Shown here one piece after another: positions 38,130-50,976 of a DNA stretch of 50,976 bases. How positions within the stretch are numbered: position 1 is the first letter of the stretch; every line of letters begins with the position of its first letter. Source of the stretch: Micavibrio sp. (lineage in GTDB: Bacteria; Patescibacteriota; Minisyncoccia; Moranbacterales; GCA-2747515); contig DYDB01000004.1 in the NCBI GenBank assembly GCA_020718085.1, positions 35,930 to 86,905 of the forward strand. The letters are read 5' to 3'. The notes under the pieces were generated by a model that saw nothing but the letters and a program-made list of their open reading frames with translations, was not told the DNA's origin and made no database searches. The position numbers and the translations under genes were made by a program.

Positions 38130-39980
38130 ATGGAAAACAAAAAGCACATGCAAGGTCTCGGGTCTGCACGTATTGACAAGAGATCGTACTTATTTTTATG
38201 TGGGGAGGAAGATCTGGCGCACGGTACGTTTACTGTGCGTGAAAGTGAGGATGGGATCAATTTTACTGCACTCACACAAAACGCAAAAGTTGTGAATATC
38301 AACGGACCAGCTGATGAATTTGATCAGTGTGGTTTTTTAAGTGCATCAAAAGATGGAAAGATGTACTATTTGACATACCAAATATGTGATGAGGAACGAC
38401 TGTCTGTTGCGCGATCGCGCAATTTGATCGATTGGGAAAAAGTAACAGATGTGGAAGGTATAAAAGGCAATGGTAAAATCGTGTCGGATTATTGGTATGC
38501 CGGGCGCAATGTGATGTTCACTGGCGGAGATGCAATTCGTGCACACGTTTCCTCCGACATGCAGAGATGGACGCGTGCCAAAAAAGATCTCATTGCGATC
38601 AATTTGAACGAATTTCAAATGGAACTTTTCGTATTGGATGTGCAGATCGTGGATGATGGTGTATTTGTAATGTATGCAGCAAAGACAAATGAAAGATGTG
38701 TCATACAATATAAGATCTATGGGGCATTATTTGAATATGGTGATCCAACAAAGATGATCTGGTGCTCTCAAGAGCCAATTTATGAAACACAAAATACAAA
38801 AAATAATTGCTCAACACTTTTTGGTGCGGTGGTTTTTGACGAATATTTCATCTCCTATTGGATGAATGATGCCGGAGAGATGTTCTTGTTGCGACATTTT
38901 TATCATCATAAAGAGGATGAAATTGCACGAGAAAATATTGCAGATGAATCTGTGACACAGGAAACAAATCGTCCGTTTCTTGTATTGGAGCGTGTAGAGT
39001 CAAATCCAATTTTAGAACCACAACATTTCTGTGCATGGGAGTCAAAAGCAACATATAATCCGACAGCTTTTGAACATGATGGGGTCATCCATATTATATA
39101 TAGAGCAGAGGGTCATGACATGATCTCCGTTCTCGGTTATGCTGCAACTACGGACGGCGTGACGATCGAAGATCGATTGCCATACTGTATTTATCGCAGG
39201 ATCATCAAGCCGGCAAACACAAATTTTCCAAGAGTGCCGTATACGTCCGGAGGTAATAATTACGGCGGCTGCGAAGACCCTCGTGCTGTATTGATCGACG
39301 GTGTGGTATATATTACGTACACAGCTTTTGACGGATGGGGTTCTGTGCGTGTGGCACTTACCTCAATTGACCTTGAAGATTTGAAAAATAAAATATGGAG
39401 TTGGAAAAAAACAGTTCTTATATCACCGCCTGGAGAAATGAATAAAAATTGGGTGATATTTCCGGAGAAAATCGATGGAAAATTTGCGATCATGCACAGC
39501 TTTTATCCAAAAATTCTCATTGATTATTTTGATGATCTGGATGAATTGGATGGTAGTAAACGATTTATAAAGAGTAATAATACGCGACCGATCGACCCGA
39601 CGCGTACGTGGGACAGTTGGTTTCGTGGGGTTGGTCCAGCGCCACTTCGCACGGAAGATGGATGGCTTGTTTTTTATCATGCGATGAACTGTAAAAATCC
39701 TGACAGATATAAAGTTGGCGCATTGCTTTTGGACATCAATGATCCAACAAAGGTTTTGTATCGGTCATCCGCACCGATCTTGGAACCGCAGGAAACATAT
39801 GAAAACGATGGACATAAATGGGGCGTGGTGTATTGTTGCGGTGCGGTGATCAAAGATGAGCAGGTGCTCGTGTATTATGGCGGTTCAGACAAATTTGTAT
39901 GCGTGGCCACAGCACCTTTGCGGGAATTTTTGGATGATCTCAAGCGTACAGGTGAAGTAAAAATGCATACTAAACATTAA
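38130..39980 (+). CDS. Bimodular beta-propeller protein with C-terminal GH130-type (mannoside phosphorylase-like) domain
   Basis: C-terminal half: RVESNPILEPQHFCAWESKATYNPTAFEHDGVIHIIYRAEG, GGCEDPRAVLIDGVVYITYTAFDGWGSVRVALTS, GPAPLRTEDGWLVFYHA, YYGGSDKFVCVATAPL. N-terminal half propeller-like but lacking CEDPR. Confidence 0.82.
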   Translation: MENKKHMQGLGSARIDKRSYLFLCGEEDLAHGTFTVRESEDGINFTALTQNAKVVNINGPADEFDQCGFLSASKDGKMYYLTYQICDEERLSVARSRNLIDWEKVTDVEGIKGNGKIVSDYWYAGRNVMFTGGDAIRAHVSSDMQRWTRAKKDLIAINLNEFQMELFVLDVQIVDDGVFVMYAAKTNERCVIQYKIYGALFEYGDPTKMIWCSQEPIYETQNTKNNCSTLFGAVVFDEYFISYWMNDAGEMFLLRHFYHHKEDEIARENIADESVTQETNRPFLVLERVESNPILEPQHFCAWESKATYNPTAFEHDGVIHIIYRAEGHDMISVLGYAATTDGVTIEDRLPYCIYRRIIKPANTNFPRVPYTSGGNNYGGCEDPRAVLIDGVVYITYTAFDGWGSVRVALTSIDLEDLKNKIWSWKKTVLISPPGEMNKNWVIFPEKIDGKFAIMHSFYPKILIDYFDDLDELDGSKRFIKSNNTRPIDPTRTWDSWFRGVGPAPLRTEDGWLVFYHAMNCKNPDRYKVGALLLDINDPTKVLYRSSAPILEPQETYENDGHKWGVVYCCGAVIKDEQVLVYYGGSDKFVCVATAPLREFLDDLKRTGEVKMHTKH

Positions 39981-40004: not shown

Positions 40005-41960
40005 ATGAAAAAAATTCATGTTAAACGTTATCCAAATAATCCAATTTTGGGTCCGGATCGCACGAGCTCGTGGGAAGCACAAGCTGTTTTCAATGGATGT
40101 CCGATCAGAGATGAAAAAGGATATCACTTATTGTATCGTGCACAATCATTTGAGCAGAAATACAAGCAGAACATGATGGAATTATCAACGATCGGGTATA
40201 CATTTAGTGAGGATGGATTGAGCTTTACCGGAGAGCGACGACCGCTTATTGTGCCTGAAAAAGAGTGGGAACAATATGGCTGTGAAGATCCGCGCGTTAC
40301 AAAAATTGACGATACATATTATATTACATACACAGCACTTTCTGATTACCCACACACACCAAAGGGAATTACGATCGGCGTGGCAACGACCAAGGATTTC
40401 AAAACGATTGATGCAAAACATCAAGTGACGAATTTTAATTCTAAGGCGATGGCCTTTTTTCCGGAGCGGATCAATGGAAAGATTGTAGCGATATTTACTA
40501 TGAATACTGACATACCGCCAGTACGCATTATGTTGGTGGAATTTGATACGCCAGAACAAATTTGGGATCGTAAATTCTGGAAGGACTGGGCAGAAGATCT
40601 GGATGCACATACATTGCATTTTCAGCGATCTTTGAACGACCATATTGAAATTGGCGCACCACCAGTAAAAACTGCAGAAGGATGGCTTCTCGTGTATTCA
40701 TATATCAGACAATATCGTACGGAAAATAAAATTTTTGGTATTGAGACAGCGCTCCTTGAATTGGAAAATCCTGTGCATGTTGTGGGACGTAGTGTTGACC
40801 CGCTTATCAAACCGGAAGAAATTTATGAACGTTATGGTGCAGTGCCAAATATTGCATTTCCTTCAGGTGTGACGTTGGACGGTGATGAGATGCGTTTGTA
40901 TTATGGCGCGGCAGATACGGCATGTGCAGTGGCGATGATCTCACTAAGTGAGTTGTTGGATTTTATCAGATTGAAGGATTGTGAAGAATATGTGATGGAC
41001 AATACCGTGCCAGTTGCATTGGAACGCTTTGAAGGTAATCCGATTCTTGAGCCGACACATGATGGTGGATGGGAGTCAAAATATGTGCTCAATCCGACAG
41101 CGATCTATGATGACGGGCTCATTCACATTCTTTATCGTGGACAAGATGAAAACGACACATCTTATGTGGGGCATATGACCACGGAAGATGGATTTCATAT
41201 TGTGAAGAAATACGATCAACCAATTTATGTACCGCGCATTCCTGAAGAGGTGCGAGAAGAGCCGGGAAACTCCGGATGTGAAGATGCGCGTATCACGCGT
41301 GTTGAGGATCGTTTTTACATGTGTTATACGGCGTACAATGGACACGGTCCGGCGCGTGTCGCGTTTACATCAATCGATGTGGATGATTTTCGCAGACAAA
41401 AATGGGATCGTTGGACTATACCGATCTTGATCTCACCGGATGGTATGGATGATAAAAATTCTTGTCTGGTTTCTGAAAAAGTGAATGGAAGATACGTGTT
41501 CTTTCATCGATTAAAACATACAATCTGGTTGGACTATGTAGATGATCTCAATTTTGAAAATGGGCGAACATTGGGTGGACGCAGTGTCATGTGCTCACGT
41601 CCAGACTCATGGGATAGTGAAAAAGTGGGTATTGCGGGACCGCCGTTCAAAGTGGGTAATGAATGGTTGCTTGTATATCATGCACTCTCTAAACATGATG
41701 GACAGTATAGACTTGGTGCGGCAATGTTCGATCTGGAAAAAGGTGCGGTAACAGCACGATTGGATTATCCGATCCTTGAACCACGTGCAGATTATGAAAA
41801 TAAAGGTTTGCGACCCGGCACGGTGTTTTCTTGCGGAGCAGTTCTCCTCAATGACAATCTCTTTGTGTATTATGGAGGTGCAGATGAGGTGGTCTGTGTG
41901 GCAACGATTGAATTTAAAAGTCTTGTGAATGCACTTGAAGAGCAAAAGGCACGACAATAA
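40005..41960 (+). CDS. Tandem two-domain GH130-type protein
   Basis: Two copies of the GH130 pattern: NPILGPDRTSSWEAQAVFN...GCEDPRVTKIDDTYYITYTAL...YYGAADTACAVA, then NPILEPTHDGGWESKYVLNPTAIYDDGLIHILYRG...GCEDARITRVEDRFYMCYTAY...YYGGADEVVCVA. Confidence 0.87.
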   Translation: MKKIHVKRYPNNPILGPDRTSSWEAQAVFNGCPIRDEKGYHLLYRAQSFEQKYKQNMMELSTIGYTFSEDGLSFTGERRPLIVPEKEWEQYGCEDPRVTKIDDTYYITYTALSDYPHTPKGITIGVATTKDFKTIDAKHQVTNFNSKAMAFFPERINGKIVAIFTMNTDIPPVRIMLVEFDTPEQIWDRKFWKDWAEDLDAHTLHFQRSLNDHIEIGAPPVKTAEGWLLVYSYIRQYRTENKIFGIETALLELENPVHVVGRSVDPLIKPEEIYERYGAVPNIAFPSGVTLDGDEMRLYYGAADTACAVAMISLSELLDFIRLKDCEEYVMDNTVPVALERFEGNPILEPTHDGGWESKYVLNPTAIYDDGLIHILYRGQDENDTSYVGHMTTEDGFHIVKKYDQPIYVPRIPEEVREEPGNSGCEDARITRVEDRFYMCYTAYNGHGPARVAFTSIDVDDFRRQKWDRWTIPILISPDGMDDKNSCLVSEKVNGRYVFFHRLKHTIWLDYVDDLNFENGRTLGGRSVMCSRPDSWDSEKVGIAGPPFKVGNEWLLVYHALSKHDGQYRLGAAMFDLEKGAVTARLDYPILEPRADYENKGLRPGTVFSCGAVLLNDNLFVYYGGADEVVCVATIEFKSLVNALEEQKARQ

Positions 41961-42159: not shown

Positions 42160-43950
42160 TTGAATGTAGTTATGGATATACGCAATATCGCCATTATCGC
42201 ACACGTTGATCATGGCAAAACAACGATCACAGATGCAATTATGCAACAAACAGGCGCATCGAGCGATGGGAGCATGGATAGTGATTCGATTGAAAAGGAG
42301 CGCGGGATCACAATTTATGCCAAAAATACATCTGTGATGTATAAAGATACGAAGATCAATATTGTGGATACACCGGGACATGCTGATTTTGGTTCTGAGG
42401 TGGAGCGTGTTTTGCGTTCCATCGATTCTGTGGTGCTTGTAGTGGATGCACAAGAAGGTCCGATGCCACAAACACGTTTTGTGCTCAAAAAATCTTTAGA
42501 AATCGGACATAAGCCTCTCGTTGTGATCAATAAGATCGATAAACCTGCTGCACGGCTTGGTGAAGTGGAAGAGGAGATCTATGAGCTCTTTCTTGATCTT
42601 GGAGCAAGTGATGAACAACTGGATTTCAAAACAGTGTATGCAATTGCGCGTGAAGGACGTGCGATGATCTCACCGACAGATGATAGTAAAGACATGTCCC
42701 CACTACTTGATGCAGTTTTGCAATATGTTGCTCCGGCAAAGAGCGATACAGATGCACCTTTTCGTTTACAATCATTCTCTCTTGCGTATGATGATTTTTT
42801 GGGACGTATGGCTGTTGCGCGTATCTATGAAGGTGTAGTGAAAAATGGTCCGGTGTTTGTAAAATCACTGGATGGTGCTGTGCGGAAAGCAAAAATTATC
42901 AAACTCTTTACATTTGAGGGAATCAATAAGAAAGTTGTGGAAGAAGCAACAGCTGGAGACATCGTCATGATCGCGGGTATTGAGAATATCGATATTGGAG
43001 AAACAATTTGTATGAATGAAGATGCAGAGGTTTTGCCGGCGATCACTGTGGATGAGCCGACGATCTCTCTTGAATTTCTCGTGAATGATTCACCGTTTGC
43101 AGGTAAGGAAGGACAGTTTGTGACGCGTGAACAGATTCGGGAACGTTTGAAGAAGGAGCTTGAAGTAAATGTGGGTCTTAAAGTGGATTTTTCGGGAGAA
43201 AATTTTACAGTTTCCGGTCGTGGAGAATTACATGTTGCCGTTTTTTTGGAAAATATGCGACGTGAAGGATTTGAAGTTGCCGTATCACAGCCGCGTGTGA
43301 TCATCAAGCATATTGATGGTGTAAAACAAGAGCCGTTTGAAGAAGTTACGGTAACAGTTCCAGAACAATATTCCGGAACAGTGATTGAAAAATTGGGCAA
43401 ACGTAAAGGTACGATGACCGATATGAAACATGGACATGATGGTGTGCGCATGCTTTTTGATGTGCCGACGCGTGGACTATTGGGTTATCGCAATGAGTTT
43501 ATTGTAGATACAAAAGGAGAAGGGATCATCTCCAGTCGTTTTTTGGAATTTCGACCGCATGTTGGTGAGATCAGAAGGCGTGCAGTTGGTTCAATGATCT
43601 CTGGTGAAACAGGAAAAGCTTTAGGTTTTTCTCTTGCAAATTTACAACAACGCGGAGCACTATACGTAGGTGCGAGTACGGAAGTATATGAGGGACAGGT
43701 GATTGGTAATACGGCAAAGGGAGATGAAATGACTGTTAATCCGATCAAGGGGAAGCAACTTACCAATATGCGCGCAAGTGGTACGGATGATGCGATTAAT
43801 CTGACGCCGCCAATCTTGATCACAATTGAAAAAGGTATGGAAGTAATGGCGAGTGATGAATACCTCGAGATCACACCACAAAGTGTGCGATTGCGGAAAA
43901 AATTTCTTACCGAAAATGATCGTATCAAAGCAAAGCGCAAAGGCGCATAG
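42160..43950 (+). CDS. typA: Translational GTPase TypA/BipA
   Basis: [67 protein letters not shown]-terminal [19 protein letters not shown]. The true start may be the Met at 42172. Confidence 0.96.
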
Positions 43951-44016: not shown

Positions 44017-44049
44017 TGTTTGACTTTTTTCTAATAAAATATAAAACTA

Positions 44050-44058
44050 TGCTATAAT
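44050..44058 (+). promoter_or_regulatory. Extended -10 promoter element of the giant surface protein gene
   Basis: TGC-TATAAT within ATAAAACTATGCTATAATATCCACAG; the same block recurs at about 50895-50920. Confidence 0.6.
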
Positions 44059-44090
44059 ATCCACAGATAAAACAAAATAACCCCCAAAGA

Positions 44091-47000
44091 ATGTTTTCCC
44101 AAAAAACAGACAAAAAAACTGTAAAAAGATCTTTTGTGTTAGCAGGAGGGGTTTTTGCTTTCCTTTTATTTACTTTTAACTTTACAGACTTTCTACTTTC
44201 TCCTGTATTGGCCGCTCCAGATCAAGAACTCACATATCACGGCAAACTCACTGATATTTTGGGACTTTCTGTCGCTGACGGAAATTATGACTTTACACTT
44301 ACAATTTACGACAGTGCAACAGGAGGCGCGTGTCTCTGGACTGCCAGAGGAAATTGTACAACGCCCACAAGTAAATCCATTGCTGTAAGTAAAGGTATTT
44401 TCTCCACAACTTTGGGAGAATCTGGAGATAATCCTCTTAATATCGCATTTGATGCAAACTATTACCTCGAAGTAAAGATCGGATCCAATTCACCCATGTC
44501 TCCTAGAAGAAAGATCACACCAACAGGATTCGCACTTAACACGCAAAGACTCAATGGACTGACAGCGGATAATTATATTGACACATCAGCAACAAGTCAG
44601 ACAAAATCCGGTGCACTTGCAGTCAATGGAAATTTCACAGTCAATACAGATGATTTTTTTGTAGATACGTCTAATGGGAATGTGGGGATTGGCACAATTT
44701 CTCCTTCAGCTAAACTTCACGCAATCAGTACTGCGGAACAGCTTCGCATTGGCTACGACACCTCCAATTATTTCTCCACTACGGTCAACTCTACGGGCAT
44801 GGTTACTTTTAATGCGTCTGGTACTGGTCAAGGATTTACTTTTTCTGACCTTATTACTACTACTCTTGGACTCATTTCTACTGGCTCTCTTACTTTTAAT
44901 GGAGTGACAAATGACATCATTACTGGTACTAATGAGCATTTTTCCATCATGCCTAATGGGACAGGAAATGTTGGTATTGGTACTATCACGCCTACATACA
45001 AGTTGGATATCGCTGGTGCTACCAACACTCGTGATCTTATTACACAAAACCTCATTTTCTCCGGCAACTCTTCAAGCATTCTCAATGCTTACTATGGCTA
45101 CAACGGCTACACCAATTTCTCCGGAGGTATCGGTACCGGAGGCATTGATAGGATAACGAACGCTCAAAGGATCACTAGCACAGGAAATCTCACCAATATC
45201 GGTTCTGTCCAAGCGGGAGAAATAAATTTGACCAGAGGGGGGACTTTTGCAACAAAAGTTGATTATCCCACAGATGCTAATTCCAGAAGTTTGGCTACGG
45301 GAGATCTCAACGGAGATGGCAGATCGGATTTAGCCGTTTTGAACTTGGGGGGCAGTAACGTTTCAGTCCTTATGAACAACGGTGATGGAACCTATATGGC
45401 TAAAGTGGATTATGGCACAGGGATGAATCCCTATGCGGTAGCTCTAGGAGATTTCAATGGCGACAGCAAGCTTGATATGGCAGTTACCAATCTAAGTGAA
45501 AATACTGTATCCATTTTCATCAACAATGGCAACGGCACTTTTGTGGCTGGAGTGACTTATGCTGCTGGATCGGCTCCATACAATATAGCAGTAGGTGATT
45601 TGAATGGCGACGGCAAAGCTGATCTGGTAGTGGGAGCTAATGCTGGAACCACTATCTCGGTATTATTAAACAGTGGCACAGGGACATTTTCTACAAGAAC
45701 AGCCTACACTACGGCCACTGCTCCGAGACACGTTGCTATCGGAGATATTAATGGTGATAGTCGTGCTGATATCGTAGCTTCTAACTACAGCTCCACGTCC
45801 GTTTCAGTTCTGCGAAATAACGGCAATGGCACTTTTGCGGCCAAGACGGATTATGCTACTGGAACCAATCCTTTCGGTGTCGCTATTGGGGATCTCAATG
45901 GTGATGACAAAGCCGATTTGGTTGTGACCAATCTGACAGCTACTTCAGTCTCTGTTCTCCTTAATAGTGGTACCGGCACTTTTCCTTCCAAGACGGATCT
46001 AACCACTGCCACCAATCCGTATAGTGTCGCCATGGGAGACTTTACCGGTGATGGAAAAACTGATCTGGCTGTAACTAATTCCGGATCGGCTTCAGTTTCT
46101 GTTTTTACGAACAATGGTAATGGAACTTTCGGAACTAAAGTGGACTATACAACGGGATTAACTCCTTATTCGGTGGTGAGTCGAGATCTTAACAGCGATG
46201 GAAAAACGGATCTGGCGGTAGCTAACTCTGGTTCTAGTTCAGTTTCTGTTCTTCTCAATCAGCCTCAATCCATGCTCTATGCTCAAGTGTCGACCGGAAA
46301 TGTAGGAATTGGCGCAACACTGCTCTCAGAAAAACTTACAGTGAATGGTGCGATCAATATTGGTAACACATCAAATGCATATGCGGGAACAATGCGTTGG
46401 AACGGATCAGACTTCGAAGGATATGATGGATCGCAGTGGCTTTCACTTACAGGCGGATTAGGTACGGTACAAGCGTTATGGGATGCAAACAATGATACAG
46501 GTATTCAGGTTGAGGAATCCGCAAATGAAGATATGATTCGTTTTGATATTGCTGGCACGGAGCGCATGACTCTAGGAACAACAGGTGATCTAACACTTAG
46601 CGGAAATTTCCTTCCGAATGCAGATGATACATACACGATTGGCGATAATGCACACAGGTGGCAAGATTTGTATTTAGGACCAAATTCATTGCATATTGGT
46701 ACGAGTACATCCGATGAGGGTGTCATCTCGTATGATACGACAAGTAATGTTCTCAATATTGGTACGGATGCTGTGACCAATGGTGATATTGCTTTTAATA
46801 CCGACCAGCTATTTATTGATAGCGTATCGGGTAATGTTGGTATCGGTACAACAATTACAAATGAAAAATTAACCGTGGATGGTTTAATTAGCCTGGCAGA
46901 GCAAACAACTGCACCAAGCGTGGATGCAGGATATGGAAAATTGTATGCAGGGGATGATGGAAAATTGTATTATCAGAATGGTGAAGGAGAAGAGGAAAAC

Positions 47001-50000
47001 ATTAGCCAAGTTAAAAAATTGGTGGAGGATTTTGTGGTTGATGAAGGTTCGTCAGTTAATGCTGGAGATGTGGTGGCGTTTGTAAATGAAACAGTGAAGA
47101 AAGGAGTAAATGTGACCAGCTTTGACAATGCTAGTTATTTTAACAAAGAATTTTATGGTCAATCACAATATATTTCTAATGTAAGGTTGGATAACACTCA
47201 TTTTGTCTTAGTTTATAGTAATAGTGAAAATTCAAATTATGGAACAGCTGTTGTCGGGACAATTTCTGGCACAACTATTACCTACGGTGAGGAATACATT
47301 TTTAATACTGCTTCAACCACATACATTTCAATTGCTTCATTAGACGCAAATCATTTTGTGGTGGCGTATCAAGATGGGGGTAATACTAATTATGGAACAG
47401 CAATTGTTGGTTCAGTGGTTGATTCTTCAATCTCATTTGGAGTAGAATATGTCTTTAACACGGCTTCAACGCCGTATATTGGTGGGGCAACAGCTCTCAA
47501 TACATCGTCTTTTGTAGTGGCATATTCTGATGGAGGCAACTCTTACTATGGTACGGCCATCGTTGGTTCAGTTTCTGGTGCTGTTATTACGTTTGGAGCT
47601 GAAAATGTTTTTAACGCGGCGTCTACACATGACATGTCAATAGCAGCTCTCAATACATCGTCTTTTGTAGTGGCATATTCTGATATAGGCAACTCTTATT
47701 ATGGTACAGCTAGGGTAGGATTAATTTCTGGAATTGATATTTCTTCTTATAGCGCAGAAAGTGTTTTTTCTGCAGCGAGCACTTCAGATGTATCAATTAT
47801 AATCATGGATTCAACACATTTTGTTGTTGGGTATGCGGCCGGTGTCAGCGGATCTTCCATAGTTGGTTTGATCTCTGGAAATACTATTCAGTCTTATGGC
47901 GCTTCGGCCAATTTTGGTTCTGGTGTACAGGATCTATCGCTCTCCACTATTGATGCCACGCATTTTCTCGTGGCAAGCGATAACGGATATGCTAGAATAG
48001 GCGTGCTATCCGGAGTGGCAGTTGCTTTTGGTGCTACAAATTCATTTGTAGGAGCTTCAGATATTTCTTCAGGTGATCCATATATATCAGTTTCAACTAT
48101 TGATTCGAGTCACTTTGTTGTTAATTACAGTAAATATGGTAGTACAACAGGTGTGGGAAGTGTTGTTGTAGGAGAGTTTTCTGGAAACGCTATATCTTCT
48201 TTTGGGGTGGAAACATATATCAATGCGGGAGAATACGGATCTGCAATAAATGATGAAATTTCTATCGCTGTTTTAGACATCTCGCACTTCGTAGTTGTTT
48301 ATGCCGATGATGGGGGTTTGCTGGGACGTACCGCGGGTATAGCTGTTATAGGCACTATATCTAATGGCATTGTTTCGTATGGTGAAGAGTACGATTTTGT
48401 CACATTCTATTCGACCATAGGAGATGTTTCTGTTGCGGCATTAGATTCCACACATTTTGTTATTGGATGGCAGGATAACTATGGAGCTGCAATAGTGGGT
48501 TCAATTTCTGGTACAGCCATTACTTTTGGCGTGGCAAATAATTATAATGTCACTGCGGGTGATACAGGAATGACAAAAATAGAAGTGTTAGACTCCGCGC
48601 ATTTTGTCGTATTATATCGCGATTTGTCGTCGGGATATGCTGTTGCCAGAGTTGGGGTGGTATCCGGAACAACTATTTCATCATATGGCACAGCTGTAAA
48701 TATCAGCGCTGTGGATACAGACCCTGGGAACATACAAAAACTTGATTCCACACATTTTGTTACAACCTATATTATAAATAGCACAGGATTCGGTGTTGCA
48801 AGAGTCAGTTCTGTTTCCGGAACGACCATAACAAATGGAACAGCAAGTAATTTTAATGCAGCTGTCACCACTGGGCGACCGTCGGTTTCTGCTTTAGATT
48901 CAACCCATTTTATTGTCGGATATGTAGATTATGGAGCATCATCTTATGGAACTGCCAGAGCTGCATCAGTGTCTGGCACAACGATCACTTATGGAGCAGA
49001 AAGTGTTTTTAATACAGCGATAACCTCGTATATCTCGGTCTCTGCTTTAGATTCAAATCATTTTGTTGTATCTTATCAGGATGGAGGAAATGCAAATCGT
49101 GGAACTGCACTCAATGGAGTGACATCCGGTACAACTATTGCATCGTATGGGTCGGAAGCTGTTTTCAATCTAAATGATACAAATTATGCAGATATTGCAA
49201 ACCTAGATGACACCCACTTTGTTGTGGCATATAACGATGAGAATGATCCTAATTATGCTACAACTAAAATTGGTGAGACTTCTGACAGATATCTCGGTAT
49301 AGCGCAAGAATCTTGCGCTGCAAATGAATCATGTCCAGTGGCAATTGATGGCATTTCCAATGCACATACCGGACTTACAACAGGTGCAGTTTATTATGTC
49401 ACAGAAGCTGGTGATCTCACTACCACAGACACAGGTTACAAAGTTGGTATGGCAATTTCATCTACAGAGATTGTTATTCAGTCTCAAGGAAGCACAAATC
49501 AAGGGGATATGTATTTTGGTGACATGATCTTTGCCAATGATTTTCGTATTACAGAACAATTGGGCAGTCCACTGGGGCTGATATTCAAAAATCATCTGGA
49601 TCAAGAGATTATGACGCTTGATGAATTGGGCAACATGAGAATTACCGGACAGATCAGTGCAAAAACTATGAACATTGGAGATCATTTTTTTGTGGATACT
49701 GTGGGCAATGTTGGCATTGGCACAGCCATGCCGACACAACCCCTCACTGTTTTTAATGGTACGACAACGGGGACATATACCACAGAAGGTTGGTCACATT
49801 CGTCGGATGCGCGATTAAAAACAAATGTCACACCGATTGATGGTTCGTTGCAAAAAGTTATGGCACTCAATGATGTATATTTTAATTGGATCAATGATCC
49901 ACAGGGTAATCGTCAAGTGGGATTTGTTGCTCAAGAAGTAATGAATGTTTTGCCTGAGGTGGTCACAGGCAATGAGAAAGACGGGTATGGTATTGCATAT

Positions 50001-50795
50001 GGAAATCTTACGGCGATCCTGGTTGGAGCCATGCAAGAACAGCAGAACATCATCACAAACGATGGTTTTCGCATTGATCAAAATGCATTGTCTGTGGTGA
50101 CATTTCACAATGATACAGTGAACAATCTTGCTGATGTTGATGCTGCATTGGGTGATATAAAAGAAGATCAAAACATATTACGTAGTGATTTTGATGATCT
50201 ATATGAGACGAATGCAAACATGCAAGCGGATATTTTGGAAGAAGTGGACTTGCGTATCATTGAGCGTATGCAAAATCTCGATGAAAGTTTGAAGGCTGTC
50301 ATTCAATTTGCAAAAGCGATTGATAATGATCTTTTGATTAATGCAGATCATTTAGTATTCACAGATGATGAGGGTAACGTGACAATTAATGGTATTTTGG
50401 CAATTGATCGTGTAGAAACAGAAGAAGTTGTCACGCAAAAAATAATTGTAAGAGAAATTGCGGAGGACGAATCAATTGCAGGTACTGCTACAATTATTGC
50501 TGGCACATATGATGTGTTTGTGCCTACGCGCACAGTGACGTCACGCAGTCGTATTTTTGTTACACCGCGAGGACTTGTCGAGAAAACATTGGGTGTGACG
50601 AGTGTGGATGATCGCTCTGGTTTTCATGTTTCAATCGTTGGATCTGCTAGTGAAAATATTACTTTTGATTGGTTCATCGTGGAAAAAGACGGTGAGGATG
50701 ATGCGGAAGAGTTTGCGGTGGATAATTCTCAAGATGAGATAAATGTAGATGATGATGCGAGCCAAGCTCTTGATGAAGGTGATGATGTGAAATAA
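44091..50795 (+). CDS. Giant secreted mosaic surface protein: signal peptide, NVGIGT fibre motifs, seven FG-GAP/VCBS-like repeats, about 14 repeats of a ~50-aa unit, peptidase S74 chaperone domain, C-terminal extension
   Basis: 2234 aa; signal sequence ending SPVLAA; GDLNGDGRSDLAV-type repeats x7; LDSTHFVVAYxDGGNxxYGTAxVG repeats; SDARLKTNV...GFVAQEVMNVLPEVV...GNLTAILVGAMQEQQ (S74 chaperone of endosialidase). Confidence 0.92.
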   Translation: MFSQKTDKKTVKRSFVLAGGVFAFLLFTFNFTDFLLSPVLAAPDQELTYHGKLTDILGLSVADGNYDFTLTIYDSATGGACLWTARGNCTTPTSKSIAVSKGIFSTTLGESGDNPLNIAFDANYYLEVKIGSNSPMSPRRKITPTGFALNTQRLNGLTADNYIDTSATSQTKSGALAVNGNFTVNTDDFFVDTSNGNVGIGTISPSAKLHAISTAEQLRIGYDTSNYFSTTVNSTGMVTFNASGTGQGFTFSDLITTTLGLISTGSLTFNGVTNDIITGTNEHFSIMPNGTGNVGIGTITPTYKLDIAGATNTRDLITQNLIFSGNSSSILNAYYGYNGYTNFSGGIGTGGIDRITNAQRITSTGNLTNIGSVQAGEINLTRGGTFATKVDYPTDANSRSLATGDLNGDGRSDLAVLNLGGSNVSVLMNNGDGTYMAKVDYGTGMNPYAVALGDFNGDSKLDMAVTNLSENTVSIFINNGNGTFVAGVTYAAGSAPYNIAVGDLNGDGKADLVVGANAGTTISVLLNSGTGTFSTRTAYTTATAPRHVAIGDINGDSRADIVASNYSSTSVSVLRNNGNGTFAAKTDYATGTNPFGVAIGDLNGDDKADLVVTNLTATSVSVLLNSGTGTFPSKTDLTTATNPYSVAMGDFTGDGKTDLAVTNSGSASVSVFTNNGNGTFGTKVDYTTGLTPYSVVSRDLNSDGKTDLAVANSGSSSVSVLLNQPQSMLYAQVSTGNVGIGATLLSEKLTVNGAINIGNTSNAYAGTMRWNGSDFEGYDGSQWLSLTGGLGTVQALWDANNDTGIQVEESANEDMIRFDIAGTERMTLGTTGDLTLSGNFLPNADDTYTIGDNAHRWQDLYLGPNSLHIGTSTSDEGVISYDTTSNVLNIGTDAVTNGDIAFNTDQLFIDSVSGNVGIGTTITNEKLTVDGLISLAEQTTAPSVDAGYGKLYAGDDGKLYYQNGEGEEENISQVKKLVEDFVVDEGSSVNAGDVVAFVNETVKKGVNVTSFDNASYFNKEFYGQSQYISNVRLDNTHFVLVYSNSENSNYGTAVVGTISGTTITYGEEYIFNTASTTYISIASLDANHFVVAYQDGGNTNYGTAIVGSVVDSSISFGVEYVFNTASTPYIGGATALNTSSFVVAYSDGGNSYYGTAIVGSVSGAVITFGAENVFNAASTHDMSIAALNTSSFVVAYSDIGNSYYGTARVGLISGIDISSYSAESVFSAASTSDVSIIIMDSTHFVVGYAAGVSGSSIVGLISGNTIQSYGASANFGSGVQDLSLSTIDATHFLVASDNGYARIGVLSGVAVAFGATNSFVGASDISSGDPYISVSTIDSSHFVVNYSKYGSTTGVGSVVVGEFSGNAISSFGVETYINAGEYGSAINDEISIAVLDISHFVVVYADDGGLLGRTAGIAVIGTISNGIVSYGEEYDFVTFYSTIGDVSVAALDSTHFVIGWQDNYGAAIVGSISGTAITFGVANNYNVTAGDTGMTKIEVLDSAHFVVLYRDLSSGYAVARVGVVSGTTISSYGTAVNISAVDTDPGNIQKLDSTHFVTTYIINSTGFGVARVSSVSGTTITNGTASNFNAAVTTGRPSVSALDSTHFIVGYVDYGASSYGTARAASVSGTTITYGAESVFNTAITSYISVSALDSNHFVVSYQDGGNANRGTALNGVTSGTTIASYGSEAVFNLNDTNYADIANLDDTHFVVAYNDENDPNYATTKIGETSDRYLGIAQESCAANESCPVAIDGISNAHTGLTTGAVYYVTEAGDLTTTDTGYKVGMAISSTEIVIQSQGSTNQGDMYFGDMIFANDFRITEQLGSPLGLIFKNHLDQEIMTLDELGNMRITGQISAKTMNIGDHFFVDTVGNVGIGTAMPTQPLTVFNGTTTGTYTTEGWSHSSDARLKTNVTPIDGSLQKVMALNDVYFNWINDPQGNRQVGFVAQEVMNVLPEVVTGNEKDGYGIAYGNLTAILVGAMQEQQNIITNDGFRIDQNALSVVTFHNDTVNNLADVDAALGDIKEDQNILRSDFDDLYETNANMQADILEEVDLRIIERMQNLDESLKAVIQFAKAIDNDLLINADHLVFTDDEGNVTINGILAIDRVETEEVVTQKIIVREIAEDESIAGTATIIAGTYDVFVPTRTVTSRSRIFVTPRGLVEKTLGVTSVDDRSGFHVSIVGSASENITFDWFIVEKDGEDDAEEFAVDNSQDEINVDDDASQALDEGDDVK
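45244..46265 (+). repeat. Seven FG-GAP/VCBS-like repeats within the giant protein
   Basis: GDLNGDGRSD, GDFNGDSKLD, GDLNGDGKAD, GDINGDSRAD, GDLNGDDKAD, GDFTGDGKTD, RDLNSDGKTD, each about 49 aa apart with NNGNGTF-like turns. Confidence 0.9.
47178..49275 (+). repeat. About 14 repeats of a ~50-aa unit within the giant protein
   Basis: Consensus by eye: xLDSxHFVVxYxDxGNxxYGTAxVGxxSGTxIxxGxExVFNxAxTxxISxx. Confidence 0.9.
49785..50055 (+). other. Peptidase S74 / intramolecular chaperone domain
   Basis: HSSDARLKTNVTPIDGSLQKVMALNDVYFNW...RQVGFVAQEVMNVLPEVV...AYGNLTAILVGAMQEQQ; Ser (49803-49805) and Lys (49818-49820) five residues apart. Confidence 0.88.
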
Positions 50796-50903
50796 GAAGG
50801 CCTTCGAAAAATTGAAGAATTATGATCTTATTGAGAAATTCTAGTTTTCATAGAAAACATGATATTTTTTTGACCTTTGCAAGGTGAATTTTATATAAAA
50901 CTA

Positions 50904-50912
50904 TGGTATAAT
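50904..50912 (+). promoter_or_regulatory. Extended -10 element of the second, truncated paralogue
   Basis: TGG-TATAAT in TATAAAACTATGGTATAATATTCACAG, near-identical to the block upstream of 44091. Confidence 0.55.
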
Positions 50913-50942
50913 ATTCACAGACAAAAAAATAAACCCCAAAGA

Positions 50943-50976
50943 ATGTTTTTCCAAAAAAAACACAAAAAAACTGTAA
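50943..50976 (+). CDS. N-terminus of a second paralogue of the giant surface protein, cut by the window edge
   Basis: CCCCAAAGA-ATG TTT TTC CAA AAA AAA CAC AAA AAA ACT GTA = MFFQKKHKKTV, versus MFSQKTDKKTV at 44091 with the same upstream CCCCCAAAGA. Confidence 0.7.
   Translation, partial: MFFQKKHKKTV

Follow-up and report, generated by a model that had tools for sequence, protein, structure and literature searches.

The giant S74 gene and the repeat behind it

The window (the whole stretch of DNA analysed, 50,976 nucleotides, G000:C6:35930-86905) runs to the last base of contig C6, which is 86905 bases long, so that the window edge is also the contig edge. Its right-hand part carries typA/bipA, a gene for a giant, predicted secreted protein and the beginning of a second gene with the same kind of start. 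The features considered here, all on the forward strand, are as follows.

42160-43950, + strand: typA/bipA, left flank of the predicted giant-gene island (TIGR01394 TypA_BipA, 805 bits over a cut-off of 757).
44039-44090, + strand: upstream block of copy 1, an extended -10 element (TATGCTATAATA) and untranslated leader; the block is unique to two genomic sites.
44091-50795, + strand: first paralogue, a giant, predicted secreted S74 surface-fibre gene of 2234 aa (open reading frame, translation, seven Pfam FG-GAP_3 matches and Peptidase_S74 above cut-off).
44091-44216, + strand: probable signal peptide, aa 1-42, read from the sequence by eye (basic start, hydrophobic stretch, ...VLAAP).
44217-44585, + strand: conserved N-terminal beta-rich domain (N-domain), aa 43-165, about 125 aa (alignments, AlphaFold model).
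45250-46280, + strand: FG-GAP repeat region of the variable middle, limits approximate (PF13517/PF01839; direct repeats at 147-nt spacing).
47167-49240, + strand: second repeat region of about 150-nt period with ...HFVV.Y.D... units (direct-repeat families D1, D2, D4, D5 and D10-D12).
49803-49967, + strand: Peptidase_S74, predicted intramolecular chaperone/autoprotease (PF13884, 6e-15), with an SDARLK motif at aa 1905.
50893-50942, + strand: upstream block of copy 2, extended -10 (TATGGTATAATA) and leader, 89.5% identical to copy 1.
50943-50976, + strand: first 11 codons of the second paralogue (MFFQKKHKKTV), cut by the contig end; its probable body lies on contig C12, from synteny.

Two adjacent genes further to the left (38130-39980 and 40005-41960) resemble beta-1,2-mannobiose phosphorylase (NF052550), both below the curated cut-off. 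No Rfam family and no tRNA was found in the window.

The N-domain of the first paralogue matched no Pfam family. Its AlphaFold model (mean pLDDT 87.9) is all-beta with seven strands, and structure searches with this model gave no confident match in the PDB or among viral models; weak matches to Ig/FN3-like sandwiches (best E of 0.06 in the PDB and 0.0016 among viral models) were not interpreted. The second repeat region likewise had no Pfam match. The Peptidase_S74 domain scored 55.7 bits against a cut-off of 22, and matches to the S74 tail include solved S74 domains from phage tail fibres as well as myelin regulatory factor. The catalytic SDxxxK motif is intact in this protein, for which self-cleavage and trimer assembly are predicted.

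The repeated block occupies the last 84 bases of the window (50893-50976), its match reaching the final contig base, and aligns with 44039-44124 at 89.5% identity over 86 columns; the alignment has a single 2-nt indel, located in the leader. It comprises the promoter, the leader and the first 11 codons of the giant gene, so each of the two visible copies is preceded by its own upstream block. The local alignment score of 126 compares with a mean of 31.3 and a maximum of 40 for dinucleotide-preserving shuffles (n = 60) run against both strands of the remaining window. Allowing three mismatches, the block pattern occurs at exactly two sites genome-wide, none of them at other genes, and a reversed control pattern had no occurrence in the whole genome. 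A sigma-70 -35/-10 pair with 16-18 nt spacing was not found in the upstream block of copy 1.

A sequence-only reading of this DNA had claimed that a second copy of the giant gene begins at the window edge, the promoter block and first codons recurring 6852 bp downstream. Both points are borne out: the start codons at 44091 and 50943 are separated by that distance, the encoded starts are MFSQKTDKKTV and MFFQKKHKKTV, and the alignment score and the two genomic sites set the block apart from chance matches. The beginning of the block, placed at 50850 in that reading, has to be moved to 50893. The visible part of the second gene amounts to 11 codons and one base, a paralogous 5' end located 148 bp behind the first gene; the window shows this stub alone because its end coincides with an assembly break at the end of C6.

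Two other accounts of the block were weighed. That it is merely the common promoter and leader of unrelated secreted-protein genes is extremely improbable: N-domain genes of relatives do have ATGnTATAAT-like extended -10 sites upstream, and no more than 11 codons can be seen, but the 86-column match spans leader and coding sequence and is found at two genomic places only, not at other genes. An assembly artefact, in which a second (strain) version of the start of the first gene was wrongly appended to the contig, is also very unlikely. The position of the repeat, right at a contig edge, would suit an artefact, as would the frequency with which contigs break within such genes. Against this, about 10% of positions differ between the copies and three amino acids are changed, the sequence directly before the block (50796-50892) differs from the typA tail that precedes copy 1, and the exact sharing at the edge, 15 bases, is too short for a typical k-mer collapse. 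We read the stub as the start of a genuine second gene.

The typA-dnaJ island and the probable body of the second gene

The host genome (1.29 Mb in 18 contigs, 98.6% complete) would belong to an uncultured ultra-small bacterium of the Moranbacteria group (Patescibacteria), and public relatives of the N-domain gene carry the name Candidatus Moraniibacteriota. Five S74 genes, all above the PF13884 cut-off, are present on contigs C6 (the first paralogue), C12, C10, C2 and C18. A contig edge cuts four of the five, the first paralogue alone being uncut. Starts of N-domain genes without bodies were found at two contig ends, the right ends of C6 and C1, and the whole assembly lacks the middle part of the cut copies' N-domain. 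C12 is the sole contig that starts inside an N-domain, at about aa 133; its first 75 bases are 89.5% identical to copy 1, and it carries a giant gene of about 4300 codons (F5/8-type and Kelch repeats, S74) followed by dnaJ as 3' neighbour.

Gene order in same-genus genomes was used to pair these fragments. On G002:C13 and G003:C100 the genes found at the right edge of C2 lie beside those found at the right edge of C1, with at most one small ORF between them, so the C1 stub and the C2 body are most simply one inserted giant gene. Since the C1 stub pairs with C2, the N-domain tail on C12 is left for the C6 stub. The C1 stub as the start of the C12 gene had also been considered, and was rejected by the gene order in G002 and G003.

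Orthologues of typA in the same-genus genomes G001-G005 are 83-87% identical. In G005, the typA contig carries typA, an S74 gene of 803 aa and, at its edge, the start of a DUF285-type gene, and the dnaJ contig opens with the last part of a DUF285 gene; the start on the typA contig is only 76 codons long and was typed by the sequence ADDFxITVKTDNTGxSSNTQFTIPTT, which recurs in the DUF285 fragment of the dnaJ contig. In G004, one kind of DUF5122 repeat array is found both at the end of the typA contig and at the beginning of the dnaJ contig, each of the two breaking within it. A giant S74 gene and a gene of about 400 aa precede dnaJ in G001, G003 and G004. This gene order indicates, independently of the pairing of C1 with C2, a common island of giant surface genes bounded by typA and dnaJ. 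The order is not universal in the genus, because dnaJ of G002 has a different neighbourhood.

Across G001, G003, G004, G005 and this genome, the slot behind typA was seen to hold giant genes of the S74, DUF285 or DUF5122 families, depending on the genus member, and assemblies break there.

It follows from this synteny that the C6 stub most likely continues into C12 just before dnaJ, a join that we infer and that would leave about 120 codons missing between the stub and the C12 start. A search for exact overlaps of contig ends found no continuation of C6, and no contig spans C6 to C12. GC skew allows the C6-C12 orientation and does not discriminate: every giant gene is on the G-rich, presumably leading strand, and all candidate joins fit equally. 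A YrdC-like neighbour of dnaJ on C12 had no same-genus match and so was of no use for synteny.

The stub could be real and yet run into the body on C18 or C10, or belong to a short gene or a pseudogene. The giant S74 genes of C18 and C10 are truncated by contig edges and lack their N-termini; the G005 gene adjoining typA has a C-terminal half that is closest to C18 (47% over 555 aa), not to C6 or C12, which means that bodies move between loci and that position by itself does not amount to proof; and on G004:C31 (L111:13326-14643) an N-domain/S74 gene is broken by stops or a frameshift and is probably decaying, which shows that decayed copies exist in the genus. We nevertheless hold this unlikely, because the other neighbours of C18 form a separate conserved block (G002:C118, G003:C13, G005:C4), and C12 is unique on two counts: it opens within an N-domain, and it carries dnaJ, a gene linked to typA in G004 and G005. 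The reading that we prefer, and regard as likely, is that the stub is the 5' end of a second giant S74-type fibre gene, arranged head to tail 148 bp behind the first in the typA-dnaJ island, its body most probably being the gene of about 4300 codons on C12. Of the second copy itself 11 codons are visible; the body assigned to it on C12 does have an S74 domain.

The earlier suggestion of a tandem array is thus probably right as to tandem order: the paralogous 5' end 148 bp behind the first gene, the synteny to C12 and the tandems in seven public contigs described below all argue for head-to-tail paralogues. The word array goes too far, as two genes are indicated and genus neighbours have DUF285 or DUF5122 genes in the slot.

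Shared ends, variable middles and possible exchange

The Ser, Asp and Lys of the SDxxxK motif are invariant in all five S74 paralogues, whose conserved C-terminus ends in DWF. Their middles differ: FG-GAP repeats in C6 and C10, F5/8-type and Kelch-type repeats in C12, unassigned sequence in C2 and C18. Together with the relatives, these alignments give good support to conserved ends with variable middles, as the sequence-only reading had anticipated. Mosaicism at the protein level is visible as well, in the likeness of the typA-side gene of G005 to C18 and in a module from G002 and G004 that is 70% identical and stands at different positions in the two proteins.

Several repeats were observed within or near these genes. 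The C12 gene (L070:1-2000) has a gap of 110 Ns with copies of one F5/8-type repeat on either side; the gap accounts for an apparent frame break at base 985, and a further 390-bp repeat of 99.5% identity lies near the gap. The S74 gene at the right end of C2 (L078) contains exact 216-bp tandem units (459 bp at 100% identity), which suggests recent internal expansion or assembly repetition. The left end of C8 and the right ends of C10 and C15 have one exact sequence in common (...CCAACTCACAACAACACAAGGAAACTACACTT), one more repeated protein module at which the assembly breaks.

At least one S74 gene is found in 46 of 109 genomes of the order, with five in this genome and ten in G002. Among 78 public loci with the N-domain, six have N-domain genes head to tail, two or three in number, and on a seventh contig, RA.bin9 (L123, L127), a 323-aa ORF separates two such genes of the same strand; the count of tandems is a lower bound, since contigs often end just downstream of the N-domain. 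A contig edge within 2 kb was found downstream of the N-domain at 29 of the 78 loci and upstream at 11 (discordant loci 27 vs 9, p 0.004), an asymmetry that may come partly from repeats inside the genes, which are long and lie downstream of their own start. Because such genes break short-read assemblies, catalogues of giant S74 genes are probably incomplete. Neighbouring tandem copies are 46-70% identical at the amino-acid level in the N-domain, and their bodies are mostly unrelated.

The same reading had proposed that the paralogues diversify by recombination between their shared ends. In the sequence compared, no long near-identical tract was found between different paralogues of this genome, so recent exchange between neighbouring copies, the mark of an antigenic-variation cassette, is not seen here. 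For the family the idea is plausible from the pair in RA.bin9 (Patescibacteria, JAKLIP010000001.1; L123/L127), where two genes with otherwise different bodies share about 900 bp at 98.8% identity near their 3' ends. The edges of this tract are sharp, identity falling to about 50% outside, and it looks like a recent exchange or conversion.

Possible role and comparison with known systems

A mechanism modelled on the mosaic adhesive trimer (MAT) of Bdellovibrio (PMC10769870) can be proposed. Each giant protein would be exported via its signal peptide, the shared N-domain would hold it at the cell, and a different repeat/propeller or lectin-like module would be carried outward as binding region. 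Fibre assembly would be the task of the C-terminal S74 domain, an intramolecular chaperone that would afterwards release itself by self-cleavage. With several genes alike at the ends and unlike in the middle, the cell would have several binding specificities, and middles and tips may be exchanged over evolutionary time. It is a tentative and rather improbable extension of this scheme that the typA-dnaJ island is a locus of diversification, its tandem S74 fibre genes exchanging binding modules through recombination, helped by their shared ends, so that a host-dependent ultra-small bacterium could change the partner cells to which it can attach.

Little is known so far about the way in which Patescibacteria recognise the cells that they live on, and a genus-wide typA-dnaJ island of giant modular S74-terminated surface proteins is a candidate for attachment specificity. 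The layout of shared ends and variable middles makes the recombination idea testable with long reads. None of the papers covered by our literature search combines Patescibacteria with S74. We regard the locus as a good lead rather than a surprise, because multi-copy S74 mosaic fibres are known in another bacterium living on bacteria.

Phage tail fibres and tailspikes share the S74 domain (PF13884), as seen in sequence matches to PDB 8jov (4.7e-10) and 6f45 (1.7e-7) and in an S74 match to the PHROG long tail fibre distal subunit (3.2e-9). Unlike phage fibres, the proteins described here have a signal peptide and a chromosomal setting between typA and dnaJ, and their N-domain was not found in 2.9 million viral contigs nor, with confidence, among PDB structures or viral models. 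A Peribacteria genome of the CPR encodes large signal-peptide-bearing proteins, some annotated with FG-GAP (PMC4736985), which are alike in large size, signal peptide, FG-GAP and ultra-small CPR host; the passages on them make no mention of S74, a shared N-domain or tandem arrangement.

Bdellovibrio bacteriovorus has 21 MATs, 13 of them with S74 (Caulton et al. 2024, PMC10769870). The layout is the same: a signal peptide, a conserved beta-rich domain of about 130 aa and a long variable body, with, in the S74 subgroup, an S74 chaperone/protease with SDxxxK at the end, as in the first paralogue. MATs likewise occur as many paralogues per genome with diverse adhesive modules, to be compared with five S74 paralogues here that have one conserved end and diversified middles. 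In contrast to MATs, the proteins are much longer (2234 and about 4300 aa, against about 1000), carry beta-propeller-type repeats (FG-GAP, Kelch) in the middle and have, behind S74, one more conserved C-terminal domain that ends in DWF. A look for the MAT capping-loop motif V-G-G/N-pi-X-X-P-X-X-X-L showed five NVGIG-type motifs, three of them with P...L, whose spacing and third residue depart from that published consensus. We do not claim membership of the MAT superfamily, and the N-domains are likened by description; with the trimer and the surface location as predictions, the MAT fibres of Bdellovibrio appear to be the closest known kind.
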